Positions 8,598 to 22,211 of a stretch of DNA of 27,302 bases are shown here, piece after piece. The notes beneath the pieces are model-generated. The model did not search any database and was not told the DNA's origin. It saw nothing but the letters and a program-made list of their open reading frames with translations. The position numbers and the translations under genes are program-made. This stretch comes from a virus. The stretch covers positions 1-27,302 of the IMG/VR virus record IMGVR_UViG_3300006752_000172; one strand, 5' to 3'. Each line of letters starts with the position of its first letter. Within the stretch, counting starts at the first letter, position 1.

Positions 8598-9520
8598 TAG
8601 CTACCGCTGTATATTCCTAGACCATCACTAGAAGTAAAGGCATCAGTATTTACAATACCATCTGCCATATTTATATTTGGATAGCTTGGTTGAAAAGTTA
8701 TTGGATCTCTTTGTGGTCTATTAGAACCATCGTCGTACTCTAAATAATCATACATACTTCTGTAAGGACCTTCTACTACACCTGGAGTCATTCTATTGTC
8801 TAATGGTCTAACAAAATTTTTAGTTATTGGTACCTTGCTTGTTTTATTACTCTCTGGTGTAGTTGTAGTTGATAACATTAATTCATTATCAAGATCATTA
8901 TAATATTCTGGATTCTCACTAACTAAACCACGCATATCATATGTAGGTTCGTCATATTTTTTTCCTAAACCAAACGCTTGGCCCAAACCTCTTATAGCAT
9001 TTCCAATAAATCCACCGCTTCTAATCAGACCCATAATGCCTCCACCTCTTGTTGCTCCAAAAGCTTCAGGGTTATACTGTCTAGCTAATCTTAATTCTTC
9101 AGGAGAGACAGTATTTCTACTATCAAAAAAACCTGGGTTAACTCTTTGTCCACCACCTGATGCAATAAAAGCACTTCTATAATCTTGTACGTCTTGAGCT
9201 GATGCTCCTTCAGCTAATGTATCAGATGTGTTTCGACCTGATTCAGCAGCACTAGTTGCTGCACCAGACATACCAACATCTCTGCCATTTTCTATAGAAC
9301 CGTAACCATTTAAACTCATGATACCTGATGGTCCTTTGTTAGCACCACCTTTTAATGAACCATGTAAATCTTTTTTAACAAGTAAATCTTTTTCTGCTTT
9401 TGTAATATATGCTAATTCTGTTTCAGGATGGTTTGGGCTAGACTTCCATTTTAAAGGAGCCATAACTTCTTTTTGTTTTCCTAAATAATTTTTTACACCA
9501 CCTTGTACTTCGTACTTCAT
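8597..9520 (-). CDS. Conserved marine-phage structural-module protein (307 aa)
   Basis: The N-terminal 85 residues contain the segments MKYEVQGGVKNYLGKQKEV, ETELAYITKAEKDLLVKKDL and GPSGIMSLNGYG, which I associate with pelagiphage-like structural modules. A Gly-rich hydrophobic patch (GGGIMGLIRSGGFIGNAIRG) lies near residues 158-177. The C-terminal third is Asp/Asn/Pro-rich and probably extended. It has no recognisable catalytic motif. It is coupled to the nozzle gene upstream (TAATG at 9520) and to the 54-aa gene downstream. A minor virion or head-interior protein is plausible. Confidence 0.6.
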   Translation of the reverse strand: MKYEVQGGVKNYLGKQKEVMAPLKWKSSPNHPETELAYITKAEKDLLVKKDLHGSLKGGANKGPSGIMSLNGYGSIENGRDVGMSGAATSAAESGRNTSDTLAEGASAQDVQDYRSAFIASGGGQRVNPGFFDSRNTVSPEELRLARQYNPEAFGATRGGGIMGLIRSGGFIGNAIRGLGQAFGLGKKYDEPTYDMRGLVSENPEYYNDLDNELMLSTTTTPESNKTSKVPITKNFVRPLDNRMTPGVVEGPYRSMYDYLEYDDGSNRPQRDPITFQPSYPNINMADGIVNTDAFTSSDGLGIYSGS

Positions 9521-11709
9521 TATCTTCTACCTCCCGGATGTATGTCTAATCTAAATGTGCCTAGCTTCCAATTTTCTCCACTAGTTGTGTTTGCTACTTG
9601 TAATTCTATTTCTCTTGCTCTTACTCTTACATCTTTTTTTGTAGTCGAAGATGTACATGTAAAATTATTTGTAACAGGTGTGCTGTTTGGATAAATTCTT
9701 GTTTTAAAATTAACAGCAGTTGTTCCTGTTTGTTCAATAAAATCTGGTATAAATCTACTAATTCTCATAATGAACTCACCGTCTCCTCTTAAATCTGGCA
9801 TACCTACAGTTTGACCAGTGTTGTTTCTACGTTGGGTAATGTCAAAAGCACCTGAAGTTATAGTTCCTATAACTGCGGTTATTACTCCTCCAGCATCGAC
9901 TTGATCAGTTCCTGTTTCGTGTTCATAGTATATAGTAGTTCCGTCAGTATTTCCAGTAACATCAAACGAGTCATTATCACTAGTCGTATAATATGTTGCA
10001 TGAGGCAGAGGAAATACAGCTGAGTCTTGCCAAGCAGTTCTAGCTAGTGTGCCAACGGTCCATATAGGTCTTTTAGAAGATGAATCTAAATAATTATATG
10101 TAACCACTTTATTGACTACGTTAGATCCAGAGCTACAATAAAACCAATTAACCTCTCCAAATAAATTGTTTAATCCACAGTTAATTAGATCTCTAGCTGT
10201 AGTGTTGAGGCCTGGTCCACCTTCTGTAGTGTAGACATGGTCTTCTACCAAACAAGGCAAAGATTGTAATTGACCATCGTATGTAAAGAACCCGTTTTCT
10301 GACATCCAATAAGCCTTACCGTCTACTTCAATACAGGCGTTTTTACCAATTAGTCCACAGTTAGTGCCTACCTGTTGAAAAGAAAAAGTAAATGGAGCAC
10401 CTACAAACTGCATTAAAAACAATGCTGTATCGGTCCAAACATAAATAGCGTCTCTACCTTTTATAGCTCCCATGATTCTTGATCCATCGGCTAGTCTTTG
10501 TGTACCTGCAGTATTGTTTGCAGTTACGGTATAAGAATCTGTTTGATCAATATTCTCTTGATCAGAAAATCTGATGAACATATCATCTTGTGTAGTGTCA
10601 TCACCAACAGTTGTTTCTGTTCCAAAAAATACTAGATGTCTGTCTGGAGTAGATACTAATACGTGTCTAGATCTTGTAGGTGCATTAGGTATAAGAGTTG
10701 CTCTATTGTTTGTTGCATTTGATGGACCTGCGTCCCATTCAAAACAAGGGCCATTGTAAATAAGTGCAATTAATTTAGTACCAAAGTTATCTAAAACCCA
10801 TAGACCTGGAGAGATAGTAAAATCTGCACCAGATGCATCTCCCCACGCAACAAAGTCAGAAATATTTGTAACAGTTGCCCCACCACTGTGCGCTGCTTTT
10901 GTTGTGCCGTTTACTTCTCTAGCCCCTCCGCTTAAAGTATTTGTACCTGTGTTGTTAGCTGTGTAACTAATGTCTTCTGATCCAATTCTTATTTCTCCAG
11001 AAGAGGGAAAGGCAGCAGAACTAGTTAAAGGAATGTCAGTTACTGTGTCATTAATAGTTGAAGCTAATGTTGTGGTTGCAGGACCATTAGCTTGACCACC
11101 ATAATTTGCAGTCCCCCATCCGAAACCACCTAATTGTTGAGATGGACCGACGTTATAATAACAAAGAACAGAGGCTGACCCAGCGTTTGTTAGGGGAGTT
11201 CCTGCCTCTGCGGTATCCATAGTAATTGTAAATGTGGTTGCACTTGGAACTGATGACACCATAAATTTTTGATCTTCAAAAGTAGCATTTGTAAAAGTAG
11301 AACCAGATAAACCAGTTACGCTATCAAATAAAACAATGTCGTCTTCCAATAATCCATGAGCCCCGGTGCATGTTACAGTTACAGTGACCGAAGAAGCAGT
11401 AGTAGTAAAATCCGAACCTGTTAAAGTTGCTCGTATAGGATGTATATCGTAGTAAGTTCCGCCTGAAAAAGCGTATAAAATTTTATTAGTTCCAATAGCT
11501 GAGTATTTAACAGAGTCATTATTCTCCCAATGATGTATTGCTCTTGCAGCACCTGTTAATTTATCCGTGCCTAACTGGCTCCACCCACCTATTTTTTCAG
11601 GTGTGCCATATCTAAAACGTACATTATCACCATCAAACCATTGCCCTTCGGCTCCTGTTTCTGTGACTTGTTTGTTAAATCCTGGTGCAAATCCTAATTT
11701 TTGTAGCAT
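9520..11709 (-). CDS. Tail nozzle / hub-like structural protein (729 aa)
   Basis: The N-terminus (LGFAPGFNKQVTETGAEGQW, then FDGDNVRFRYGTPEKIGGW) and the C-terminus (WKLGTFRLDIHPGGRR) match a large all-beta tail protein common in podovirus-like phages. Its position fits the nozzle or tubular protein B (T7 gp12-like) or the P22 gp10-like hub. Residues about 105-170 hold an aHGL..dDiV.f domain. Residues about 211-283 hold a Thr/Ser-rich beta module that also occurs in two connector genes of this window. Many WG and GxxW segments suggest propeller-like blades. It starts 4 nt after the small unknown gene and is coupled by TAATG to the next gene. The assignment to nozzle rather than another hub protein is inferred. 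Confidence 0.7.
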   Translation of the reverse strand: MLQKLGFAPGFNKQVTETGAEGQWFDGDNVRFRYGTPEKIGGWSQLGTDKLTGAARAIHHWENNDSVKYSAIGTNKILYAFSGGTYYDIHPIRATLTGSDFTTTASSVTVTVTCTGAHGLLEDDIVLFDSVTGLSGSTFTNATFEDQKFMVSSVPSATTFTITMDTAEAGTPLTNAGSASVLCYYNVGPSQQLGGFGWGTANYGGQANGPATTTLASTINDTVTDIPLTSSAAFPSSGEIRIGSEDISYTANNTGTNTLSGGAREVNGTTKAAHSGGATVTNISDFVAWGDASGADFTISPGLWVLDNFGTKLIALIYNGPCFEWDAGPSNATNNRATLIPNAPTRSRHVLVSTPDRHLVFFGTETTVGDDTTQDDMFIRFSDQENIDQTDSYTVTANNTAGTQRLADGSRIMGAIKGRDAIYVWTDTALFLMQFVGAPFTFSFQQVGTNCGLIGKNACIEVDGKAYWMSENGFFTYDGQLQSLPCLVEDHVYTTEGGPGLNTTARDLINCGLNNLFGEVNWFYCSSGSNVVNKVVTYNYLDSSSKRPIWTVGTLARTAWQDSAVFPLPHATYYTTSDNDSFDVTGNTDGTTIYYEHETGTDQVDAGGVITAVIGTITSGAFDITQRRNNTGQTVGMPDLRGDGEFIMRISRFIPDFIEQTGTTAVNFKTRIYPNSTPVTNNFTCTSSTTKKDVRVRAREIELQVANTTSGENWKLGTFRLDIHPGGRR

Positions 11710-11713
11710 AATT

Positions 11714-12049
11714 CTACTCTACTTTATCAATTATTAAATTCCAAGATAAATTATCTAGCAATTCATCTAGGTTAAAATCTCTCTTATCCATAGATTTAAC
11801 GTACTCATTTAACTCTTCAGTATCAAATATAATCCATTGACTGATTGTTTCAAACACCATCTTATCAGATTTTGATTTAAAGTAACCTGTTTTTTCAGCT
11901 CTATTATCGACCTCTTTTAAGGGTCGAATATCAAATTTAAAAGTCTGGTTTCCGTTTTTTAATCTACCCTCTACGTCCCAAATTTCTTTTTTCCGTTGTT
12001 CTGGAGTTGCTAAAACAGAGTCCGATAAATAGTTTATAAAATTTTTCAA
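11714..12049 (-). CDS. Small unknown protein (111 aa) at the end of the oxygenase array
   Basis: The reading frame begins KNFINYLSDSVLATPEQRKK after the start codon. It contains an EIWDVEGRLKNGNQTFKFDI segment and ends in an acidic helical tail (NLDELLDNLSWNLIIDKVE). The only sensible start is a TTG at 12049-12047, which shares bases with the TGA stop of the previous gene; the next in-frame Met is more than 60 residues in. It lacks the HxD...H pattern of the neighbouring oxygenases and looks alpha/beta. It sits exactly between the 2OG array and the nozzle gene. I do not recognise a family with a known function. Confidence 0.65.
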   Translation of the reverse strand: MKNFINYLSDSVLATPEQRKKEIWDVEGRLKNGNQTFKFDIRPLKEVDNRAEKTGYFKSKSDKMVFETISQWIIFDTEELNEYVKSMDKRDFNLDELLDNLSWNLIIDKVE

Positions 12050-12516
12050 GGCGTTAGGTCTTCAATAAAATCTATAGCAAGAGATATTCTAGGCTTTTTA
12101 CATGGTTTTACTACATGTGATAGTTTTGAATCAAATAAAATTATTAATCCTTCTTCTTCTTTTACATTTAAAAAACCAGGGTTTAAATCAAAATACAAGG
12201 GATTTGATTCGTCAGTCTGTATAAAAATAATAGAACTAATCTGTTCAGGTTCATGGTGGTGTAGGTTAGCATGTTGACCTACCTCGTAATAATTAGCCCA
12301 CCAACAAGACGCTTTAAATTTAATTTTTGTAGATTGTAAAAGTTTTTTAGATATTTTGTTTTTAAGAAAATCAAAAAAAATATAATCTGGATTAAACCCA
12401 GACGTTAAAGCTTTAACATTATTTAAATCTTTTTTCCAATTTTGTTTAGATAATAATATTTCTTTTTTAATGTCATTAATTAATTCTTTAGAAATACTTA
12501 AAGAAGTTAAAAACAT
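12046..12516 (-). CDS. 2OG-Fe(II) oxygenase-like protein, HxH subclass (156 aa)
   Basis: The N-terminal 65 residues are helical. The beta-helix core starts at CWWANYYEVGQHANLHHH. The putative metal site is His86-x-His88 (Glu89 adjacent), then His134 in KLSHVVKP, with Arg143 in PRISLAIDF as the 2-oxoglutarate carboxylate anchor. The core pattern (W..yy..g..n..H.H, then SSIIFIQ, then G.iilFdS.lsH) is that of the TIGR02466/2OG-FeII_Oxy_5-type families. It is the last oxygenase of the array and starts by TAATG coupling from the previous member. The substrate is unknown. Whether an HxH site binds iron like the classical HxD site is not settled by sequence. Confidence 0.75.
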   Translation of the reverse strand: MFLTSLSISKELINDIKKEILLSKQNWKKDLNNVKALTSGFNPDYIFFDFLKNKISKKLLQSTKIKFKASCWWANYYEVGQHANLHHHEPEQISSIIFIQTDESNPLYFDLNPGFLNVKEEEGLIILFDSKLSHVVKPCKKPRISLAIDFIEDLTP

Positions 12517-13142
12517 TACTTTTTAAACCAAGAAGGTAACCCTAAATGTGGACGTTTATCAAACATGTTTTGTTCAGCTCCCGGTGTTTTAGAATTATTA
12601 TAATGTAAAAAAACTTGAACACATTCATCTCCATTAAATTTTTTTCTCCAATGTTCTAATTCACAACCAGAGTAAACTAACATATCACCTGGATTTAAAT
12701 CTACTTTAACACCCTTCATACCTTTCTTACCTGAGGGTTCTAAATATATAGGCCACGCATCTCCACCTAAATTCATAGTAGTAGATATCTCACAACTAAA
12801 TCTATCCTTGTGTCTTTTAAGTTCATCACCTTTTTTATAAATTCTTGCATAAGTGTAAGCTGGGTATAATTTTAAACCCGTGGCTTTTTCCATTTGTGGT
12901 TGACATTTTAACAATAAAGTTTCCATAGCAATATTAGCATAATGAGAATATGTATTAGGTATTTGACCATTTACAGGATCTTCATACTCTCCGATAATAG
13001 TTTCAAATGGTGAAAAATATTTAAATTTTCGGCAAGTATCATATACTTGTTTTTGTATACTAAAGTAATTTGCAATAAAAGTTGCAAGATCATTTGATAT
13101 AGCTTTTTTAATTACTGTATATTTATTTTTTTTAAAAGACAT
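12516..13142 (-). CDS. 2OG-Fe(II) oxygenase, HxD subclass (208 aa)
   Basis: The motif DELKRHKDRFSCEISTTMNL gives His111 and Asp113. LEHWRKKF gives His164. The usual 2OG-binding Arg position is occupied by GDECVQVFLHY, so Gln176 or another residue may replace it. A LNPGDMLVYSG strand precedes the second His, as in dioxygenases of the prolyl-hydroxylase type. This form, ending with PHLGLPSWF, is one I know from marine phages and bacteria. I chose the ATG at 13142 over an in-frame GTG at 13148. It overlaps the end of the preceding member by 11 nt and is coupled by TAATG to the next one. Confidence 0.85.
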   Translation of the reverse strand: MSFKKNKYTVIKKAISNDLATFIANYFSIQKQVYDTCRKFKYFSPFETIIGEYEDPVNGQIPNTYSHYANIAMETLLLKCQPQMEKATGLKLYPAYTYARIYKKGDELKRHKDRFSCEISTTMNLGGDAWPIYLEPSGKKGMKGVKVDLNPGDMLVYSGCELEHWRKKFNGDECVQVFLHYNNSKTPGAEQNMFDKRPHLGLPSWFKK

Positions 13143-13635
13143 TTCCACTCACTATTAATCTATTATTATTTTTATTTGGACGAACTTCGTGTGGTAAAAA
13201 ACCAGGAAATATTAAAAGTGTTCCAGGAATAAATTTAAATGATATTGATTGATTTGTATTTATATAAGGAAAACCTACATCATAGAATACAGTAGGTGAT
13301 GATTTTTCATTACCTTCTATAAACCATACAAATGATTTTTCATCACTGTCATGTACATGTAAAGAATGATAACTATTTTTTAAATACTTTTGAACCCAAC
13401 AATTTTTTAATTTTAAATTATGTTTTTCAAAAATATCTTTTAATTGTTTATTAATAAATTCTTTAAACACTATACTTTCATCTGTATTATCCATTGCTTC
13501 GTAATATGAATTTAAATTCATTTCAGGGTTGTGTTTATCCTTTTTCAAAGAAACCTGTTTTATCTTTTTTAAAACATCCTTTTTAATTTCTATATACTCT
13601 TCTATTAAATAATAACTAAAAGTATGTCTATACAT
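13132..13635 (-). CDS. 2OG-Fe(II) oxygenase-like protein, HxH subclass (167 aa)
   Basis: The N-terminal 70 residues are Lys-rich helix. The core begins with NCWVQKYLKNSYHSLHVHDS, placing His93-x-His95 (Asp96 adjacent) at the metal site. GTLLIFPGFLPHEVRPN supplies His149, and Arg159 in NNRLIVSGNVF is the expected 2OG anchor. The IPGTLLIFPG strand is typical of TIGR02466-like members. Its start forms an 8-nt overlap (ATGTATAG) with the upstream gene, so it is probably co-translated. The region is very AT-rich. The function is predicted only at fold level. Confidence 0.8.
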   Translation of the reverse strand: MYRHTFSYYLIEEYIEIKKDVLKKIKQVSLKKDKHNPEMNLNSYYEAMDNTDESIVFKEFINKQLKDIFEKHNLKLKNCWVQKYLKNSYHSLHVHDSDEKSFVWFIEGNEKSSPTVFYDVGFPYINTNQSISFKFIPGTLLIFPGFLPHEVRPNKNNNRLIVSGNVF

Positions 13636-14221
13636 TTTTTTCTCCTAAAAAACAATTGATTGAATATCTAGTTCCTTTTGTAATAGGTTCTGTACCATGG
13701 ATCCAAATAGGTTCAGCAGGAAAAAACAAACAGTCTCCTGTTTTAAGGGTTTCTTTTATTTGCCCGTTAAAAAATCTAAACTCACCACCTTCATAATTTT
13801 CGTTTAAGTTAATAGTACAAGACCCTCTATAGGTACCACCTACATCAGTGTGGTCTTTAATACACTGACCTTTAGAATATTTTAATATCCTAATGTTTTC
13901 TGTGTAACAAATGCTCCTTGCTTCATAAGTAGATAAAACATTTTTTTGAATATATGATTCATATTGCCTAACAACCTCACCTATTATATCTGCTGCTAAA
14001 AGAAAAGCATCATTTAGTTCTTTGCTTTTATTACACATTTTAGACAAAGATATACATTTAAAATTATCTTCCTCTCTTTTTTTTGAAATGTATTTATAAC
14101 TACTTTCTTTCTCACTGAGAGTACTGTTATTTTCATACAATTTTATAAAATTGTCACAAGTTTGTTTATCAACAAATTTATTAATTCTTAATTTAAGATC
14201 TTTTATTTTTATATTATTCAT
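13628..14221 (-). CDS. 2OG-Fe(II) oxygenase, HxD prolyl-hydroxylase-like (197 aa)
   Basis: This is one of the clearest members of the array. YSKGQCIKDHTDVGGTYRG gives His124 and Asp126. LNENYEGGEFRFFNG is the standard GGEL/GGEF strand of prolyl-4-hydroxylase-like enzymes. WIHGTEPITKGTRYSINCFL supplies His175 and Arg185. All four expected catalytic or binding residues are therefore present. It overlaps its upstream neighbour by ATGAATAA and its downstream neighbour by ATGTATAG. The predicted reaction is Fe(II)- and 2-oxoglutarate-dependent hydroxylation. The substrate could be a protein side chain, nucleic acid or small molecule. Confidence 0.88.
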   Translation of the reverse strand: MNNIKIKDLKLRINKFVDKQTCDNFIKLYENNSTLSEKESSYKYISKKREEDNFKCISLSKMCNKSKELNDAFLLAADIIGEVVRQYESYIQKNVLSTYEARSICYTENIRILKYSKGQCIKDHTDVGGTYRGSCTINLNENYEGGEFRFFNGQIKETLKTGDCLFFPAEPIWIHGTEPITKGTRYSINCFLGEKNV

Positions 14222-14834
14222 TTATCTTGAGTTCAGTTTTGTGGTGAATATCTCCCAAAACACCCTTTACGAAAGTATTAAAAGATAAACTAATTCTTAA
14301 ATCTTCTGTTTGTTTTACCGGCACAGAATGAGATAGTGAAGAAGGAAATAAAATAATATCTCCAGTATTAACAGGTAATGACCAAAGTTCAGAGTTAAAT
14401 TCGTTGTATTCTTTTCTGTTAAAACTTAAATTATTGTACCTTTGCGAATGAAAGTTTATCTCATCTTTAGATGCTTTGATATATATAACACCAGAAACAA
14501 TAGAGTTTGAATGAGTGTGTTGATGATGGTATTGATTTTTTTCTGTTAAATTTAACCAGGATTGAGTTATGTGGGGGGTAACATTATCGCTTGGTTGTAC
14601 TATCTTATCAAAATAATCTTTTAAAATAACATGCAATTCATTTTTTAATTTACTTAATATTTTATTTTCTAAGATATAAGAGTCTAAACTCATAATGTTT
14701 CCGGTATTATCTCGTAAATTTTTAAAGCTATCCTCAAAGAAAAGTTTTTCTTTTTTGTTAAATTCCCTATTTAAATTTGATCTATATACTGGTGTTGGAA
14801 ACAAACCTATGATTTCAATTTTTTTATTATCCAT
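14214..14834 (-). CDS. 2OG-Fe(II) oxygenase-like protein, TIGR02466 type, HxH subclass (206 aa)
   Basis: The N-terminus (IEIIGLFPTPVYRSNL) is the LFPTPVy start typical of the TIGR02466/2OG-FeII_Oxy_5 family. SWLNLTEKNQYHHQHTHSNS gives His106-x-His108, followed by the family's SGVIYIKA strand. GDIILFPSSLSHSVPV gives His169, and EDLRISLSFN gives Arg180. Length and motif order match the family well. The start overlaps the stop of the previous member as ATGGATAA, and the same kind of 8-nt overlap joins it to the next. The HxH pair is typical for this family as I know it, not evidence of inactivation. Confidence 0.85.
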   Translation of the reverse strand: MDNKKIEIIGLFPTPVYRSNLNREFNKKEKLFFEDSFKNLRDNTGNIMSLDSYILENKILSKLKNELHVILKDYFDKIVQPSDNVTPHITQSWLNLTEKNQYHHQHTHSNSIVSGVIYIKASKDEINFHSQRYNNLSFNRKEYNEFNSELWSLPVNTGDIILFPSSLSHSVPVKQTEDLRISLSFNTFVKGVLGDIHHKTELKINE

Positions 14835-15354
14835 TACGTTCTATGTTTAGCCATCCTGTAACAATGTATTTTTCTTCTGTTGGTGAAACTATACCTGCAT
14901 GTGGGTGAGTAAAATCTGCAGGCCATATTAAAAGATTTCCTTTAATAGCTTTAAAAACTTTATTCTGTAGAGGAAATCTTGTCCCTCCTTGATCCTTTAT
15001 TGTATTTAAATAAAGCATATATACTAATTGTCTACGGCAATCTGTATAGGATCTTTCATAGTGAATATTTGTAAACCCAACATTAGTTGAATAATGTTGA
15101 ATCTTATTTTGAAACTGTGTTTTAAGACTATTTGTAATGTTATATTTTCTTGAATAGCTAACTACACACTCAGATAAATATTTAAAAAATTGAATTATAA
15201 TTGGGTGTCTTGATTCGTTAAAAAACAAAAGATCTATTGTATTATTTATATCTTTTCTAAAACCTTTATGCTCATTATGTGTTCTATAATATTCAAGTAA
15301 ATCATCACAATGTTCTAGAGGTATCTTATATTTTTCTATAAAATTGTTTTTCAT
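14827..15354 (-). CDS. 2OG-Fe(II) oxygenase-like protein, HxE subclass (175 aa)
   Basis: GFTNIHYERSYTDCRRQLVY places His98 and Glu100 where HxD normally occurs. A QGGTRFPLQNKVF segment corresponds to the GGET strand. LLIWPADFTHPHAG supplies the distal His (150 or 152), and EEKYIVTGWLNI has Lys162 where Arg is usual. The WPAdfTHpH...KYIvTGW ending is shared with a known phage and bacterial 2OG-oxygenase subgroup. I chose the ATG at 15354 because it forms TAATG with the upstream stop; an upstream TTG or GTG-type extension would overlap that gene by about 50 nt. Ligand substitutions make activity less certain than for its neighbours. Confidence 0.75.
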   Translation of the reverse strand: MKNNFIEKYKIPLEHCDDLLEYYRTHNEHKGFRKDINNTIDLLFFNESRHPIIIQFFKYLSECVVSYSRKYNITNSLKTQFQNKIQHYSTNVGFTNIHYERSYTDCRRQLVYMLYLNTIKDQGGTRFPLQNKVFKAIKGNLLIWPADFTHPHAGIVSPTEEKYIVTGWLNIERNG

Positions 15355-15842
15355 TAAAAGTAATTTATATTTATAGATATTCTTTGTTTGTGGTTTGTGC
15401 AATTTGTAGCATAATGTTCAACACTACTGTTAAATAAAACCATTCTGTTTTGCACGCAATCAACTTTATCTTTACCAATTTTAGTGTAACCGTTTGTTGT
15501 ATTGATGTAATACAAAGCAACATTGCAATCATACGGCTGATCTTTGTGGTAATCACCTTTTATTATTTTAGAATCAAGAGTTTTTAAAATAGCCATAACT
15601 CTAATCAAGCTTTTAACTTTTAATTTAGTTATTAATGGTTTTATTAAATCAAAATTATTTGATGTTATATATCCACCATCATCCTCTTTATAAAAACTAT
15701 GTGCTAAATGAAATATATTTTTTCTATTTAAATATGCTATAGAATTATTTTGAAAATACCAAGGAAAGGTATCTGATTCTAAAACTTTTTTTAAAGGAAG
15801 ATATTCATCATCAGTTAAAAAATTATCTATAATTTTGTACAT
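15354..15842 (-). CDS. 2OG-Fe(II) oxygenase, HxD subclass (162 aa), paralogue of 16476-16970
   Basis: It starts MYKIIDNFLTDDEYLPLKKV at the ATG at 15842, which forms TAATG with the previous stop. IKGDYHKDQPYDCNVALYYI gives His99 and Asp101. SSVEHYATNC gives His143, and QRISININYF gives Arg154. The NTTNGYTK, QNRMVLFNSS and C-terminal ININYF segments align closely with the gene at 16476-16970, marking the two as paralogues separated by one unrelated-subclass member. This subgroup occurs commonly in marine cyanophage-type genomes. The substrate is unknown. Confidence 0.85.
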   Translation of the reverse strand: MYKIIDNFLTDDEYLPLKKVLESDTFPWYFQNNSIAYLNRKNIFHLAHSFYKEDDGGYITSNNFDLIKPLITKLKVKSLIRVMAILKTLDSKIIKGDYHKDQPYDCNVALYYINTTNGYTKIGKDKVDCVQNRMVLFNSSVEHYATNCTNHKQRISININYF

Positions 15843-16474
15843 TAAGTACCTTTCGCCATCTCCTTTGGTATCGCTTGTATATTCCAATGTATAAACCTAA
15901 AAGGCTCTAAGCCTAAATCTACAGAAAACTCATGTTCCATATAACCTGGAAATATCATTAGAGTTCCTGGTTTAGGTTTAAAGTTTACTATGTCTGCGCC
16001 AGGCCACACCGTCCCTTCTTCAGGTTTCATTTTTAATTTAGTAGCTCTTGCTCCCGTTCTAGGTTCATGCATAATTGGATGAGAAGTCTTTTCACTACAT
16101 TTTAAAAAATAAAATCCAGAAACATGTTGATTCCAATGTACATGCGCTGAATGGTGACCACCACCTTTTTTAGCAAACTCTTGTACCCACAATTCTGAAA
16201 AAAAAGTTTGATAGTGAGACATATCAAAACCTTGTGCATCTAGAAACTGCCAAGACTTTTCACCAATATATTTTTTAAAATCTAAAAACTTAGTGTCTCC
16301 TATTAAATTTGGTGAATGAAAACTTCTACCAAAATCACCATGTTTTTTTATATATTCTTTTTGAAATTTTTTCGCATCTTTTATATATTTATCAGAAGCT
16401 TTATTTAAAGACGTTAGAAACTCAGGTTTATAATCAAACCAAAGTGTTGTTGAAAAATAATTACTAGCTTGCAT
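15842..16474 (-). CDS. 2OG-Fe(II) oxygenase-like protein, HxH subclass (210 aa)
   Basis: SELWVQEFAKKGGGHHSAHV leads into His111-x-His113 (HVHWNQHVSGFYFLK), the TIGR02466-like arrangement in which HxH is followed by an SGfYfl strand. KPKPGTLMIFPGYMEHEFSV supplies His181, and PFRFIHWNIQAIP supplies Arg193. A Lys-rich helical N-terminal region precedes the core. It starts 1 nt after the preceding stop and ends in the TAATG junction with the next member. It is one of the longer and better-conserved members, and a functional enzyme is likely. The substrate is not evident. Confidence 0.82.
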   Translation of the reverse strand: MQASNYFSTTLWFDYKPEFLTSLNKASDKYIKDAKKFQKEYIKKHGDFGRSFHSPNLIGDTKFLDFKKYIGEKSWQFLDAQGFDMSHYQTFFSELWVQEFAKKGGGHHSAHVHWNQHVSGFYFLKCSEKTSHPIMHEPRTGARATKLKMKPEEGTVWPGADIVNFKPKPGTLMIFPGYMEHEFSVDLGLEPFRFIHWNIQAIPKEMAKGT

Positions 16475-16475
16475 A

Positions 16476-16970
16476 TTAAAAATAATTTATATTAAGGCTT
16501 AGTCTCGCCCATTGGTTAGAACAATCAGTACTTTTGTGCCAGTAGCTTGAATCAAAAATTAACATCCTATTTGCAACACTTTCAATCTTTGTACCATCTT
16601 TAAATTTAGTATAACCATCATTTGTATTTATATAAAATACTGCTGTCTTGTTTTTAAATTGATAATCTATGTGCCACCCATGTTCAGATACTTTATCCTT
16701 ACCTGGAAACAAATTTGTTCTAAGTCTTAACAAAGCTTTAACCCCTAATTTTTTTAATAAAGGTTCAAATTTACCAAAATGAGGAGAATGAATTTTATGA
16801 TCTATAAATAAAGTATGTGTCTGATAATAAAGGTTACCAAGTTTTTCACCTTTATTTGTTATTTCTCTACAAACAAACCAACCAAAATCGTTAGCTTCAT
16901 ACAAATCAACAAGTTCATTGAAATAAGATTGTTCTAAAAAATTATCAATTACTTTATATTTATTTTTCAT
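16476..16970 (-). CDS. 2OG-Fe(II) oxygenase, HxD subclass (164 aa), paralogue of 15354-15842
   Basis: It begins MKNKYKVIDNFLEQSYFNEL. VSEHGWHIDYQFKNKTAVFY supplies His100 and Asp102. FDSSYWHKSTDCSNQW supplies His145, and ARLSLNINYF supplies Arg156. The ligand spacing and the terminal NINYF closely match the paralogue 15354-15842. All classical residues are intact. It starts 1 nt after the stop of the upstream hydroxylase and lies 1 nt before the next gene, so the run is effectively a single polycistron. Confidence 0.87.
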   Translation of the reverse strand: MKNKYKVIDNFLEQSYFNELVDLYEANDFGWFVCREITNKGEKLGNLYYQTHTLFIDHKIHSPHFGKFEPLLKKLGVKALLRLRTNLFPGKDKVSEHGWHIDYQFKNKTAVFYINTNDGYTKFKDGTKIESVANRMLIFDSSYWHKSTDCSNQWARLSLNINYF

Positions 16971-16971
16971 A

Positions 16972-17604
16972 TTATTTAAATGGGTATCCTAAATGCCATA
17001 ATACAAGACTATATCTTGTGCCTGACGTTACCGGTTTAACTCTATGCCATGTGTTGGATGGAAAAATTATTATAGATCCTTTAGGTAAAATTTCTTTTGC
17101 CTGAACTACATGTTTAGATTCATCTCTTAAAGAGGGATCATAGTTTCTAAAATCAAATTCTAACTCTCCCCCTTCATACTCTGACCCATCTGTTAGTTGA
17201 CAGGTCATAGATAATTTTCTTACTTTTCCATTTTCAGGTCCCTCTTTTTCATAAGGTTTATCCCAGCTATCGCAATGCCAATCATAATACTGATTTAATT
17301 TATATTTTGTAAACTGACACGATTCAGAAAAATCCCAACTGTAGTTCCAACCAGCATTTTTGTTAGCTGCCCTAACATATGGATGCACTTCTTTATAAAT
17401 CCAATTATCATTTAACCAAACAACATTACAGTTTCTAGTATTTTTCATAAACCTTAATTGTTCTTTGGTTAATTTTTTATCATCAAAACCACCTGTTCTT
17501 GCTATTTCTTCTTTTTGAGATAAACCTAATCGAATAACTTCATCACAAAACCTCGGTGTTAATACTGATTTGAAATACCAAAATTTAGCAGGGGCAGTAT
17601 CCAT
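16972..17604 (-). CDS. PKHD-type 2OG-Fe(II) hydroxylase (210 aa)
   Basis: This is the most canonical member of the array. NQYYDWHCDSWDKP supplies His110 and Asp112. SEYEGGELEFDF is the GGEL strand. GSIIIFPSNTWHRVKPVTSG supplies His187, and GTRYSLVLWHLG supplies Arg197. This pattern is that of PKHD/prolyl-4-hydroxylase-type enzymes. I chose the ATG at 17604, 1 nt after the previous stop. An upstream TTG would extend the protein by 11 residues, giving a 32-nt overlap without improving the match. Fe(II)/2OG-dependent hydroxylation is well supported. The substrate is unknown. Confidence 0.9.
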   Translation of the reverse strand: MDTAPAKFWYFKSVLTPRFCDEVIRLGLSQKEEIARTGGFDDKKLTKEQLRFMKNTRNCNVVWLNDNWIYKEVHPYVRAANKNAGWNYSWDFSESCQFTKYKLNQYYDWHCDSWDKPYEKEGPENGKVRKLSMTCQLTDGSEYEGGELEFDFRNYDPSLRDESKHVVQAKEILPKGSIIIFPSNTWHRVKPVTSGTRYSLVLWHLGYPFK

Positions 17605-17605
17605 T

Positions 17606-18109
17606 TTATATGCCTTCGTACGTAATTGTTTGTACAAAATTTAATAACTTTTTTTGATGATTAATAACTATATATTTATTGGTAGATGGAAAAATAATGT
17701 ATTTATTTTTTTTTAACTCGATAGTCCAATCCCTACCTTTTCTTCTGTTATCTTCATAGTAAAATTTAACATAACAATCCTTAGTGTGGACACCATAAAG
17801 CATTGTGAAATCAGGTGAGTTTCTTAAATCAACTGGATCAACATCACAGATTGGTTCTGAAGTTTGGTTGGGATAATAAATACCACCTTTAGATTCTTTA
17901 TTTATTAAATTAATTTTATGTTTTAAAAAAAAGAACTCTCTAATATAATTATTTAATTTTTCCCATTCTTTAGAATAAGAAAACTCATCTCTAAAAAAAA
18001 CATATTTAAATATGTCTTCGCATAATTTATATGAATTTATTTCAAAGCCTTGTGGCATTTTTAAATCACCGTAGTATAAGGCTAACTCGCTTAAAACTTT
18101 TTTATCCAT
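17606..18109 (-). CDS. Degenerate beta-helix / cupin-like member at head of oxygenase array (167 aa)
   Basis: The C-terminal half (FTMLYGVHTKDCYVKFYYED, then DWTIELKKNKYIIFPSTNKY, then LLNFVQTITYE) has the strand layout of the oxygenase double-stranded beta helix, including the kyiiFPSt strand. No HxD...H triad or anchoring Arg is present in the expected places. I recall similar ...FVQTITYE proteins as conserved in marine cyanophages, without a named function. It opens the run of eleven genes, 19 nt after the 159-aa gene, and its start has only a weak ribosome-binding site. It may be a non-enzymatic, structural or regulatory member. The fold assignment is inference. Confidence 0.6.
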   Translation of the reverse strand: MDKKVLSELALYYGDLKMPQGFEINSYKLCEDIFKYVFFRDEFSYSKEWEKLNNYIREFFFLKHKINLINKESKGGIYYPNQTSEPICDVDPVDLRNSPDFTMLYGVHTKDCYVKFYYEDNRRKGRDWTIELKKNKYIIFPSTNKYIVINHQKKLLNFVQTITYEGI

Positions 18110-18128: not shown

Positions 18129-18608
18129 CTATTGTGTATTAAGGTCAAGTAATTCCCACTCTTGAGGTACTTCTCTCCATTGATAATACCAAGCATGGGT
18201 TTGAGCATCATTCTGACTTTGTTGTTCTGCAGTTAATTCCGGTGCATCACCTATTGGTGATTGCCATCTTGCTTCACTTACATTTTTTACATATGAATCA
18301 TATATTTTTGGTGCTAAAAAAATTTCATTTTCTGAATCCCAAGTATATCCTATTTGTGGGTAATTACCCCTAAAGGCTTTTGATTGATCTGCAGAAGGTT
18401 CTAAAGTATCGGGATTACGATGTTTTCCTTCAAAGGTATTGTATGAACATTTAATCCACAAATGTGCAGGCCAACTAAAATGTGTTTGTAAAAAATTTTG
18501 TCCAATAGATTCAACTTCTTCACCTTCTTCATTTGTAGTATCTGGATCATTTACTACCATAACTTGTAGTACTTCGTTTTCCTCTGATATTTTTGCAAAA
18601 TGTGCCAT
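18129..18608 (-). CDS. Conserved marine-phage tail-module protein (159 aa)
   Basis: The N-terminus (MAHFAKISEENEVLQVMVVN) and the later WIKCSYNTFEGKHRN, RGNYPQIGYTWDSENEIFL and WQSPIG segments match a small protein that is very common in marine phage tail and fibre regions. It is acidic and soluble. The C-terminal 35 residues are Gln- and Trp-rich (TAEQQSQNDAQTHAWYYQW). It lies between the Gly-rich fibre gene (6-nt gap) and the oxygenase array. Its function is not established to my knowledge; a virion or fibre-associated role is inferred from context. Confidence 0.7.
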   Translation of the reverse strand: MAHFAKISEENEVLQVMVVNDPDTTNEEGEEVESIGQNFLQTHFSWPAHLWIKCSYNTFEGKHRNPDTLEPSADQSKAFRGNYPQIGYTWDSENEIFLAPKIYDSYVKNVSEARWQSPIGDAPELTAEQQSQNDAQTHAWYYQWREVPQEWELLDLNTQ

Positions 18609-18614
18609 ATTGTT

Positions 18615-19580
18615 TTAACTCGCTTGAAATTTATATCTTAAAACTACAATACCAGAGCCTCCCCCAAAATTATTTCCAGGATTGCCTCTACCGCCTCCGC
18701 CACCTTGTCCTCTATTTGAAGGGCCACTATTTCTACTTGGAGCAAAACTAGCCCCTCCACCTGCAGAGTAACAAGTTGGAGAACCTGAAACTGATGAAGT
18801 GGTAGCTGGACCACCATTACTAGCATTACCGCAAGATGCTGAGCCACCGGCCCCTCCACCTGCTGCTCCTCCATAAGAAGAATAAGGTTGTCTACCAGAA
18901 CCTGGGTTACCTTGTGGTGGACTAACTGGAGGTGTATTGCCTGATCCTGCAGCAGATTTTGAGGAATTAAGAGCTCCTCCTCCAGATCCCCCAGGTGAAC
19001 CTGGGTTTGTTGGTGATTCATGAGAACATGCAGCACCTGATCCTCCTCCAGTAGATGTAATTGGTCCAAATGAAGATGGACTTCCTCCACCTCCTACACC
19101 TACAGGGTATGGTCCTGTAGAAGAAATTGGTATTGTAGATCCACCAGCTTTTGGTGAAACAGAATATGAACCACCTGCATTGTTTGGAGATTCACGGTAT
19201 CCTCCGCCTCCTCCGCCTCCGCCCCAACGGCCTCCACCGGACGCGCCACCAGCGACTACCATCCAGCTAACAGCATTGCACGATGGATTAGATCCAATAG
19301 CAGAAACACAAAAAGTACCTCCGCCTGTAAATGTATGAATTTTGTAATCTCCACATGTAGTTACAGTTCCACCTGTAGCTTGTATAAAACTTAAATTTTC
19401 AGCTCCTCTAAATTGTCCAATTGATATTTGACCACTTGTAGGAATAGGTCCATTTGGAGCAGGTGCAGCTGAAGGAACTAAAGGTCCGTTTGAATAATAT
19501 TCGGTAAGTTCAATTGGATTACATCCGCCGAATTCAGTTTGAATATCTGATAATCCTGTATTAGTTGATGGGATAGGCAT
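18615..19580 (-). CDS. Glycine-rich, cysteine-containing tail fibre-like protein (321 aa)
   Basis: Residues 1-60 contain LSDIQTEFGGCNPIELTEYY and IPTSGQISIGQFRG, a fibre N-terminal motif common in marine phages. Residues 70-110 form a TGGTVTTCGDYKIHTFTGGG beta domain followed by VSWMVVAGGASGGG. From about 111 to 309 the chain is dominated by Gly, Ser, Pro and Asn (for example GNPGSGRQP and NPGSPGGSGGG), ending in SGIVVLRYKFQ. Seven Cys residues (20, 76, 91, 101, 185, 250, 270) are unusual for a phage fibre and could form disulphides. It has a strong AGGAG ribosome-binding site. It is probably a receptor-contacting tail protein, and its nearness to the hydroxylase array is notable. Confidence 0.75.
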   Translation of the reverse strand: MPIPSTNTGLSDIQTEFGGCNPIELTEYYSNGPLVPSAAPAPNGPIPTSGQISIGQFRGAENLSFIQATGGTVTTCGDYKIHTFTGGGTFCVSAIGSNPSCNAVSWMVVAGGASGGGRWGGGGGGGGYRESPNNAGGSYSVSPKAGGSTIPISSTGPYPVGVGGGGSPSSFGPITSTGGGSGAACSHESPTNPGSPGGSGGGALNSSKSAAGSGNTPPVSPPQGNPGSGRQPYSSYGGAAGGGAGGSASCGNASNGGPATTSSVSGSPTCYSAGGGASFAPSRNSGPSNRGQGGGGGRGNPGNNFGGGSGIVVLRYKFQAS

Positions 19581-19581
19581 G

Positions 19582-20694
19582 TTAACTCTCCTTCTTACTT
19601 AAAACTTCTACTTGCGCTGAAAGTTTTTTCACTGCCTCAATAAGTAAACAAGTTAATCTGTCGTATTTGACAGCTTTAATACCATCGGGTCTTTCAGCAA
19701 CAGCCTCTGGTAAAACTTTTTCTACCTCTTGTGCAATAACACCCACATCTTTTTTTCTAACAAAATATCCATCTTCACCACCTCTTTGATCAATATATTC
19801 TTTTTTCCAATCAAATAGAACGCCGTTTAATTTTTTTAAAGACTCTATCGGGTCTGGTATATTTGTAATATTTTCTTTAAGTGCAACGTCTGAAGAATAA
19901 AAAGCAGTTACATCATTTGTAGCTCTTATTTCTCCTGTAGTCCCTGAAGCTGCGGTTCCAACTCCAAAACTATCAAATTGTACATCGTTACCTGTGTCTA
20001 ATGCTAAAGAAGCTCTTGCAGTAGCACCAGTTTCTAAAACAAAATTAGAACCATTTCCAACAATAAAACCTCCATCAGTTACAGCTAAACCTGCAACATC
20101 TGCTAATTGTGCATCATAAGCTTGTACGTCACTTCCAATTGATACACCAAGAGAAGTTCTAGCAGTAGCCCCAGTTTCTGCAACCCATGTTGAACCATTA
20201 CCAACAATTATATTACTGTCAGTTGGTGTTAAAGCACCTATCGCAGTAAGTGTAGCGTTTACCGGTGAAATCTCATACACACCTGTGTTAGTTGCAACAC
20301 CATCAAGATAAATAATTTTCCAACCTTTATCAGTTGTTGCAAAAGTAACAGTTGCACCTGAACCTGAAGCGGCTTTTAATTGAACTGTATAAGCACCTGA
20401 TGTGCTATTTTTTATAAAATAAAAAGTTTCTGTAAGTAAAGGAAATGTTACAATTTGATTTCCTGTAATTGTTCCTGTTAAGTCTAATACCCTTTGTTGA
20501 GCAGTACCTGTTAAAGCACCGTTATCTATATCTAAAGCTGTAGTTTGTGCACCACCAGCAATGGATATTGATAAGTGACCGCCTGTAAGTTGCTCAATAA
20601 GGCTTAAATTTGAATTTGTTTTTGTTCCCCAAGTACCGGCATTTTCACCGGTTGCCATTAATTCTATACCTAGATCTGTGTATGTTGATGCCAT
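19582..20694 (-). CDS. Tail fibre with C-terminal S74 intramolecular chaperone (370 aa)
   Basis: The N-terminus (MASTYTDLGIELMATGENAG, then TWGTKTNSNL) is a common marine fibre start. The middle region contains a duplicated segment (IVGNGSTWVAETGATARTSL near 163-182 and IVGNGSNFVLETGATARASL near 211-230). From about residue 268, SDVALKENI, then FDWK, KDVGVIAQEVEKVLPEAV and YDRLTCLLIEAVKKL form a peptidase S74 domain, with the Ser and Lys of the SDxxLKENI motif as the likely self-cleavage dyad. Such domains trimerise the fibre and then cut themselves off. The AGGAG plus AAAAAATT ribosome-binding site is strong, which suits an abundant virion protein. Confidence 0.88.
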   Translation of the reverse strand: MASTYTDLGIELMATGENAGTWGTKTNSNLSLIEQLTGGHLSISIAGGAQTTALDIDNGALTGTAQQRVLDLTGTITGNQIVTFPLLTETFYFIKNSTSGAYTVQLKAASGSGATVTFATTDKGWKIIYLDGVATNTGVYEISPVNATLTAIGALTPTDSNIIVGNGSTWVAETGATARTSLGVSIGSDVQAYDAQLADVAGLAVTDGGFIVGNGSNFVLETGATARASLALDTGNDVQFDSFGVGTAASGTTGEIRATNDVTAFYSSDVALKENITNIPDPIESLKKLNGVLFDWKKEYIDQRGGEDGYFVRKKDVGVIAQEVEKVLPEAVAERPDGIKAVKYDRLTCLLIEAVKKLSAQVEVLSKKES

Positions 20695-20705
20695 AATTTT
20701 TTCTC

Positions 20706-22211
20706 CTAAGCTACGTGCGTTACATCTGTATAAGATGTATTCCCTGTTATGTCAATATCTTTGTATGCTAATGTTCCAAAGCCTGTTGTACCTACTTCTG
20801 CAGTTGCTTCAACCCCTGTTAGTCCTACAACTTCTGCAGGCGAAATAGCTCCAACACTTGCTGTTGAAGATACACCGGTTAATCCTACAGCATCTGAAGG
20901 AGAAATAGCACCAACTGAAGAGTTTAAAATAGCCGGTGTTGTTACACCATCAGAACCTATTATAACTATTTGTGCTTCGGTTACGTCTAAACTTCCAACA
21001 CTTGCTGTCGCTTCAACCCCTGTTAACCCTTCGACATCTGCAGGAGAAATATCTCCAACACTCGCTGTTGCAGATACACCGGTTAATGGAGCCCCTTCGC
21101 CAATTACAATTTCTCCAACACCTGTTGTTGCAGATACACCAGTTAGTCCCATAACATCTGCAGGAGAAATATCTCCAACACTTGCTGTTGAAGATACACC
21201 GGTTAATCCCACAACATCCGCAGGTAACAAAGATCCAACACTTGCTGTTGCTACTGGTAATGCAGTTAATTGAACTAATTTATTAAATGAGTCTCCATAA
21301 GGTTCTTCACCCCAACCATTTCTACCCCAACCAACTAACGTACCGGCATTATCAAAGTCTCCAACTTGAGAAGTCATTTGACTTGGAGCTGTTATTAATA
21401 CATTTAAAAATTCATCTGTGTTTATAGATCCAACAGCAGACGCACCTTGATTTGAAGGAGCAGTTATAGGAACATCTAAAAATGCTTCTGCAGTAAGTGA
21501 ACCTAATGAAGATGTTAATCCTGCAGGAGTATCACCTGTTGTTCCAATTCTAACCGCATAATCAACACCCCAACCAGAGTTTCCAAATTCTTGTCTACCC
21601 CAACCTTCTGCGTTTTCTGCCTCTATCGCACCAACGGCAGATGTTAATGTTGATGGTGCAGTTAAAGATACAATAGAAGTTAAATCAAAACCTACAGACC
21701 CAGTTGAAGTTGATAAATTTGTCGGAGCTGTTAGTGAAACAGTAATACTTGGTGAACCTTCAACACTTCCCACACTTGAAGTTGCTGATTGCCCACTTAA
21801 AGTTATTTCTATAGGACCTTGATCACCCCATTCATTAGTGCTCCATGCCCACATTCCCCAAGTGTTATCATCAACTGTATTTGCCTGACCACCCATTCCA
21901 GAGTGGTTTGTACAATAGTAATAAAGAGTGGGTGCGCTTTCAGCGACTATAATTTGTGTATAAGCTCCTGCATAACCAGGAGTACCATATGTGGTTACAC
22001 CAGTTGTGTATTCAGAACCACCACCCCATGTACCGTTACTTGTTGTTGAAAATCTTAATGGGTGGCTATTGTTTGATGAATCAGATTGATCAAATTTGTA
22101 TGTACCATTCTCAGCAATATTTATTGTAGCTTGTTGTACGCCATCAATAAAATATTTATTTCCACTGTCGGTGCTAACAACCGTTACTGTAAATGTTCGG
22201 GTTACCGACAT
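20706..22211 (-). CDS. Tail fibre-like protein with cupredoxin-like domain and tandem repeats (501 aa)
   Basis: Residues about 1-112 form a beta domain whose ending YYYCTNHSGMGG places Cys100, His103 and Met106 in a C-x2-H-x2-M pattern. An upstream His50 (SNNSHPLRFS) completes a possible type-1 copper site, like that of small blue copper proteins. Trp/Gly-rich blocks follow (NTWGMWAWSTNEWGDQG, EGWGRQEFGNSGWGVDY). Residues about 315-480 contain several copies of a short repeat of the form LTGVxATASVGDISPADV. The C-terminus is YKDIDITGNTSYTDVTHVA. The start and ribosome-binding site lie within a perfect hairpin with the upstream stop. Copper binding is inference; the fibre role follows from repeats and context. 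Confidence 0.75.
   Translation of the reverse strand: MSVTRTFTVTVVSTDSGNKYFIDGVQQATINIAENGTYKFDQSDSSNNSHPLRFSTTSNGTWGGGSEYTTGVTTYGTPGYAGAYTQIIVAESAPTLYYYCTNHSGMGGQANTVDDNTWGMWAWSTNEWGDQGPIEITLSGQSATSSVGSVEGSPSITVSLTAPTNLSTSTGSVGFDLTSIVSLTAPSTLTSAVGAIEAENAEGWGRQEFGNSGWGVDYAVRIGTTGDTPAGLTSSLGSLTAEAFLDVPITAPSNQGASAVGSINTDEFLNVLITAPSQMTSQVGDFDNAGTLVGWGRNGWGEEPYGDSFNKLVQLTALPVATASVGSLLPADVVGLTGVSSTASVGDISPADVMGLTGVSATTGVGEIVIGEGAPLTGVSATASVGDISPADVEGLTGVEATASVGSLDVTEAQIVIIGSDGVTTPAILNSSVGAISPSDAVGLTGVSSTASVGAISPAEVVGLTGVEATAEVGTTGFGTLAYKDIDITGNTSYTDVTHVA
20749..21270 (-). repeat. Tandem coding repeats in the fibre C-terminal region
   Basis: Units of roughly 54-60 nt encode LTGVxxTASVGxISPADV-type peptides. 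The segments 21031-21090 and 21151-21210 are nearly identical over 60 nt (shared core acatctgcaggagaaatat), and cagatacaccxgtta also recurs at a 60-nt offset. High nucleotide identity suggests recent duplication or slippage, which could change fibre length between relatives. Confidence 0.8.

Follow-up and report, generated by a model that had tools for sequence, protein, structure and literature searches.

An ordered core within a variable island of 2-oxoglutarate oxygenase-fold genes between the tail-fibre and nozzle genes of HTVC023P-type pelagiphages

Wittmers et al. (2022) described eight nonorthologous 2-oxoglutarate (2OG) auxiliary metabolic genes (AMGs) in the HTVC023P-type pelagiphages, 'frequently nearby ... 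(although not adjacent)', with 'ferrochelatases' as partners, and judged the 2OG family too short and diverse for trees (PMC9599517). Here we analyse an array of eleven 2OG-oxygenase-fold genes, g1 to g11, in a related virus fragment, IMG/VR record IMGVR_UViG_3300006752_000172 (positions 1 to 27,302; this whole stretch of 27,302 bases is referred to as the window). The structural module places the window in the same phage group: gene order is similar, and the nozzle is 40–47% identical over 88–100% of its length to those of HTVC023P, HTVC027P and 023Pt_psg01; IMG/VR adds 80 closer loci. No polA was recognized in the window, and the host is probably a SAR11 bacterium.

The eleven genes adjoin one another on the minus strand at 12046–18109, with fibre genes (18129–22211) on one side and the tail nozzle gene (9520–11709) on the other. 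They cover 6,064 bp, 22% of the window, and are joined by 1-nt gaps, 1-nt overlaps at TAATG or overlaps of 8–11 nt, as counted after internal ATG codons had been substituted for the mechanical starts at three TTG codons and one GTG codon (the open reading frame (ORF) tool lists g7 with a TTG start at 15887 and g6 with a TTG start at 15402). The initial annotation had described ten 2OG-Fe(II) oxygenase-like genes and a degenerate member, tightly packed over about 6 kb and more than a fifth of the window, between fibre genes and nozzle. All of this agrees with our results, the gene count being upheld by profiles, fold and the H-x-D/E/H...H signature. In the order of the coding strand, the genes are:

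17606–18109, minus strand: g11, degenerate 2OG-oxygenase-fold protein, first array gene, core; no Pfam family, predicted fold
16972–17604, minus strand: g10, PiuC/PKHD-type 2OG oxygenase, HxD, core; PF13640 E 9e-16, PDB PiuC E 3e-5
16476–16970, minus strand: g9, 2OG oxygenase, phrog_274 ('DNA endonuclease V' in PHROGs), HxD, accessory; PF13640 E 2e-4, below cut-off
15842–16474, minus strand: g8, PF13759/TIGR02466-type oxygenase, HxH, core; PF13759 E 1e-12
15354–15842, minus strand: g7, phrog_274-type 2OG oxygenase, HxD, accessory; phrog_274 E 7e-42, Pfam below cut-off
14827–15354, minus strand: g6, PF13640 2OG oxygenase, HxE, accessory; PF13640 E 6e-8
14214–14834, minus strand: g5, PF13759/TIGR02466 oxygenase, HxH, accessory; PF13759 E 6e-22, TIGR02466 over cut-off, PDB 3BVC E 2e-8
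13628–14221, minus strand: g4, PF13640 2OG oxygenase, HxD, accessory; PF13640 E 3e-11
13132–13635, minus strand: g3, PF13759-type oxygenase, HxH, accessory; PF13759 E 2e-6, phrog_81 E 6e-27
12516–13142, minus strand: g2, 'ferrochelatase' of phage annotations, a predicted prolyl-hydroxylase-fold 2OG oxygenase, HxD, core; phrog_2954 E 2e-52, AlphaFold
12046–12516, minus strand: g1, PF13759-type oxygenase, HxH, accessory; PF13759 E 2e-9

The closest described locus, HTVC023P gp63–gp71 (PMC9599517), shares phage group, place and core genes (orthologues of g11, g10, g8 and g2) with the window, but has these four and one further oxygenase before the nozzle, whereas the window has eleven adjacent genes. 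The reported non-adjacency may in part arise from interleaved 2OG genes that are named ferrochelatase or DNA endonuclease V. A run of similar length is found in the Synechococcus phage syn9, where ten consecutive double-stranded beta-helix (DSBH)-type genes, gp45–gp54 (NC_008296.2, 37053–43144), lie next to tail-fibre assembly genes. Nine of these match 2OG, JmjC or array profiles, and the tenth, gp46, belongs to the same PHROG as gp52, which matches; phrog_61, 81, 274 and 2954 types are included, and for five of the ten genes the record gives the names DNA endonuclease V, minor coat protein or ferrochelatase. Phage syn9 differs from the window in being a T4-like cyanomyovirus and in having two tryptophan halogenase genes close by; its run includes a JmjC-type member, and a g11-type member was not found there. 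Cyanophage S-SCSM1, with 24 2OG genes in its genome (PMC9602691), likewise combines many divergent PF13640 and PF13759 members in one phage; in the locus examined they form small groups rather than an unbroken run. In HTVC008M gp068–gp072 and Mosig gp55–gp60, 2OG genes stand in tandem between tail-fibre and neck genes, and a g10-type gene lies upstream of a 'ferrochelatase'; these genes differ in belonging to myoviruses and in numbering five to six, and the HTVC008M cluster is opposite in strand to the adjoining tail genes. Altogether, 2OG clusters adjacent to tail or neck genes also occur in HTVC008M, Mosig, HTVC033P, Sf-CH11, S-SCSM1 and syn9. In marine myoviruses, tryptophan halogenase genes are repeatedly seen next to such clusters of the tail or neck region (L271, syn9; L257; L269, Sf-CH11; L088, HTVC008M).

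The initial annotation considered so many different oxygenases in a row to be unusual. Their number is indeed far above the usual one to five, but it has precedent in relatives with two to eleven genes and in the ten-gene run of syn9; the array stands at the extreme of a kind of strain-variable island that is already known. What seems to be undescribed is the ordered core, the purifying selection on a dead g11, the corrected 'ferrochelatase' and an accessory turnover that is independent of the nozzle.

Ordered core and accessory turnover

We then compared the interval between fibre genes and nozzle among relatives. Counted over 25 dereplicated loci that include fibre, array and nozzle, the island has 2–11 2OG-fold genes (median 6), the window being at the maximum; contig L224 has a second unbroken run of eleven. 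Clustering at 45% identity divided 186 such genes from 34 loci into 70 clusters, 43 of them singletons. Against this diversity, the order g11 > g10 > g8 > g2 was kept in 88 of the 88 loci holding the four genes, a set in which some loci are separate parts of the same contig and many were chosen by g11 or g2 similarity. Wherever g10 and g2 occur together, g10 comes first, and a g10-type gene is also upstream of g2 in HTVC033P, HTVC008M, Mosig, P-RSM4 (by T4-GC number) and L257, a T4-like contig binned as Porticoccaceae. Core proteins are 76–86% identical to their nearest relatives, accessory proteins 28–63%. Across loci, accessory genes precede, separate and follow the core members. In the window, g9 separates g10 from g8, g7 to g3 stand between g8 and g2, and g1 follows g2.

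Array content was not correlated with nozzle similarity (Mantel rho 0.035, p 0.37) or with the S74 fibre (rho −0.03), and was weakly correlated with the Gly-rich tip protein (rho 0.22, p 0.02); we therefore rejected a close link between fibre type and array content, the correlation being weak at best. Phages with 96–97% identical nozzles can have zero 2OG clusters in common. With content ignoring nozzle similarity in this way, exchange as a block is supported: the island is exchanged or rebuilt faster than the sequence beside it. We conclude that the interval between fibre genes and nozzle is a hypervariable, fixed-position island of 2OG-fold genes, in which strain-dependent accessories surround an ordered core. 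Clusters on the opposite strand in HTVC027P, HTVC008M and L051 indicate that the cassette can be inverted.

The initial annotation had regarded the AT-richness of the run as consistent with a separately acquired block. GC is indeed lower in the array (0.26–0.30) than in most of the flanks (0.32–0.45), but third-position GC is equal (0.12–0.21 in the array, 0.11–0.21 in the flanks, 0.27 in the small ORF at 11714–12049), so the difference reflects amino-acid composition and AT-richness was rejected as a sign of acquisition. Nor does recent tandem amplification account for the array. Within it, g7 and g9 are 37% identical and weaker BLAST pairs are g1/g3, g3/g8 and g4/g10; with so few related pairs, and most window genes closer to genes of other phages, the array has the look of old lineages brought together and not of a fresh duplication.

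The flanking features are:

20706–22211: fibre-like protein with repeated GLTGVxATxxVGxISPAD-type units
19582–20694, minus strand: tail fibre with S74 chaperone; PF13884, tail-fibre PHROGs
18615–19580, minus strand: Gly-rich fibre/tip protein, PF21722
18129–18608, minus strand: f18129, the fibre-side neighbour, phrog_7759
11714–12049, minus strand: g0, short conserved ORF separating the array from the nozzle gene, of no known family and not recognized as an oxygenase; relatives hold the same place in many phages
9520–11709, minus strand: tail nozzle/stabilization protein, downstream boundary of the island; phrog_3287, 40–47% identical to HTVC023P-type proteins

Active-site signatures, the phage 'ferrochelatase' and g11

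Nine of g1–g10 match PF13640, PF13759 or 2OG-type PHROGs, g7 and g9 falling below the Pfam cut-off and being clear through PHROGs and motif. Among profiles, g2 matches phrog_2954/3531 'ferrochelatase' alone, with no Pfam match, and was placed by fold, as was g11; the DSBH fold is thus predicted from models for these two and from profiles for the remaining members. In each orthologue group from g1 to g10 (four sequences each for g1 and g4), H-x-D/E/H and the distal His are 100% conserved, and in most an Arg follows. The first pair is HxD in g2, g4, g7, g9 and g10, HxE in g6 and HxH in g1, g3, g5 and g8. Orthologue alignments show H121/D123/H198/R208 of g10 (36 sequences) and H114/E116/H168 of g6 to be invariant, both in listed-start numbering, as are H111/H113/H181/R193 of g8, HxD...H...R of g9, HxD...H of g7 and, in four sequences, HxD...H...R of g4. 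Profiles, fold and these alignments together identify g1–g10 as 2OG-Fe(II) oxygenases with an intact predicted active-site signature. In the PF13759/TIGR02466 type (g1, g3, g5 and g8) the second ligand is His in every orthologue and aligns to HxH in PDB 3BVC and 2RG4; it is possible that these members have a three-His iron site or a different chemistry.

The reading of g7 and g9 as 'DNA endonuclease V', from phrog_274, finds no nuclease or glycosylase match in Pfam at E 1; the best Pfam matches of both are 2OG families. More widely, 2OG-oxygenase signatures are present in phrog_274 and phrog_2297 proteins that PHROGs and GenBank call 'DNA endonuclease V' or 'DNA endonuclease'.

A similar correction applies to g2. 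It carries RHKDR...LEHWR, with H113/D115/H166/R168 invariant, and no Pfam ferrochelatase match was obtained at E 1 among its 41 members. The AlphaFold model from the 41-sequence alignment (predicted local distance difference test (pLDDT) score 94.4; predicted template-modelling (TM) score, pTM, 0.89) has as its first Foldseek match the Pseudomonas putida prolyl-4-hydroxylase (P4H)/EF-Tu complex (E 5e-9, TM about 0.6), with PHD also among the top. Foldseek returned 651 chains at E 0.001 or better, and the 50 matches listed are 2OG-type oxygenases. By modelled fold and motif, then, the phrog_2954 'ferrochelatase' is a prolyl-hydroxylase-fold 2OG oxygenase. Relatives in phrog_2954/phrog_3531 have matches in 156 phage records, and the 'ferrochelatase' (phrog2954) has served as a seasonal AMG category (PMC11561400). 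Bacterial chromosomal homologues of g2 are mostly in contigs from metagenome-assembled genomes or single cells. They were set aside as a clue to substrate: of two contigs examined closely, L257 is clearly phage. In the SAR86 contig L264, a short g2 homologue stands beside a rhodanese-domain gene.

The AlphaFold model of g11 (54 sequences, pLDDT 88.2) matches PHD2, P4H and the PF13759 structures 2RG4 and 3BVC, with VIA Z 15.0 and a root-mean-square deviation of 2.7 over 151 residues against 2RG4, and Z 14.2 against P4H. No HxD/E...H is present, a conserved His being absent from the DSBH region in the 54 sequences. Model and alignment thus indicate a 2OG-oxygenase fold without a metal site, apparently a dead homologue. 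Its median ratio of nonsynonymous to synonymous substitution (dN/dS) is 0.075 (25 pairs), equal to that of the catalytic core genes (0.074–0.098), so g11 is maintained under purifying selection and is not decaying. Directly upstream of g11, f18129 is found in 121 of 143 g11 loci, nine of the remainder being contig ends. Conversely, g11 accompanies every f18129 of 81 bits or more bar one, and is absent with all of 73 bits or less; phrog_7759-type proteins strongly similar to f18129 are almost always with g11, and weakly similar versions occur without it.

Candidate functions of the array

A virion- or host-surface-related job, proposed in the initial annotation, is plausible. Within it we tentatively favour, at somewhat less than even confidence, the idea that the array enzymes act as hydroxylases on side chains in tail or receptor-binding proteins of the phage itself. 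Counts of internal promoters and terminators in the array were close to the shuffled-sequence level. We infer translation as one unit with the fibre and nozzle genes, with late co-expression with the tail genes. Ten oxygenases made from this unit would then modify tail or receptor-binding protein side chains. By analogy with dead subunits in other enzyme families, g11 might serve the core enzymes as a scaffold or as an allosteric partner, and accessory genes would alter which residues get modified and thereby adjust adhesion, stability or host range from strain to strain. A tail protein is suggested as the substrate because the tail or neck location recurs in unrelated phages and because the nearest folds of g2 and g11 are protein hydroxylases (P4H, which modifies EF-Tu, and PHD2). 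The ordered core with a conserved dead subunit points the same way, and the many divergent enzymes suggest many modification sites. That array content weakly follows the Gly-rich tip protein, and not the nozzle, was also counted in favour of this idea, as was the pairing of g11 with strongly similar versions of f18129.

Several observations weigh against tail-protein hydroxylation. Fold similarity names no substrate, and AlkB-type enzymes score Z 13 for g11 too; the tip-protein correlation is weak, is one of several tests and could be caused by adjacency alone. The cluster is on the strand opposite to the tail genes in HTVC027P (L086), HTVC008M (L088) and L051, so that co-expression with tail genes is not obligatory. 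Our literature search on phage prolyl hydroxylases acting on tail fibres found nothing relevant.

It is possible, if unlikely, that the targets are instead small molecules in the infected cell, or glycans or lipids of the host surface, with receptor masking or superinfection exclusion as the outcome, the tail location of the genes marking no more than a recombination hot spot at the fibre locus. Turnover independent of nozzle lineage is what hot-spot cargo would show, glycosyltransferases lie near the nozzle in HTVC023P and HTVC027P, and g5 weakly matches a carbohydrate-cluster 2OG oxygenase model. Sugar-metabolism genes are absent inside the array, however, and the unchanging order of the core, together with strong purifying selection, speaks for a concerted function and against mixed cargo.

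Nucleic-acid modification or repair of an AlkB- or TET-like kind has been proposed for cyanophage 2OG proteins. It would fit the action on DNA of 2OG enzymes with this fold, the presence of AlkB among the structural neighbours of g11 and the labelling of several array genes as DNA enzymes in PHROGs. We nevertheless think it quite unlikely: those labels conflict with the 2OG signatures, the sites are in the tail module and not beside replication genes, and none of the ten matches an AlkB or TET family of Pfam above cut-off.

Metabolic draw-down of 2OG or iron, including a ferrochelatase partner, is the auxiliary-metabolism model, for which there are proposals by Sullivan et al. (2010) and Wittmers et al. 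(2022) (PMC3037559, PMC9599517). One enzyme would be enough for it, and the presence of ten that are divergent and conserved each on its own speaks for different substrates; its ferrochelatase half fails with g2 being a 2OG oxygenase by fold and motif, and we regard the model as very unlikely here. The suggestion in the initial annotation that ten iron enzymes would weigh heavily on a phage of iron-poor surface waters is speculative. That the proteins are mostly non-catalytic, with the DSBH fold as tail decoration, is highly improbable, since the lack of ligands in g11 and the 'minor coat protein' annotation of some relatives are set against iron ligands that are invariant in g1–g10 in all sampled orthologues.

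Returning to the hydroxylation of tail proteins, a more specific form, which we consider unlikely, is that the conserved quartet is one complex, in which a dead g11 would guide three hydroxylases and exchangeable accessories would write strain-specific residue marks on the receptor-binding tail tip.

The reassignment of g2 takes the 'ferrochelatase partner' out of published iron and heme scenarios (PMC9599517, PMC11561400) and touches the name of the gene family. The ordered core with its dead partner offers a definite four-protein set to purify and test. If the quartet does act in the way outlined, it would amount to a chemical diversification of host recognition by gene-content switching.

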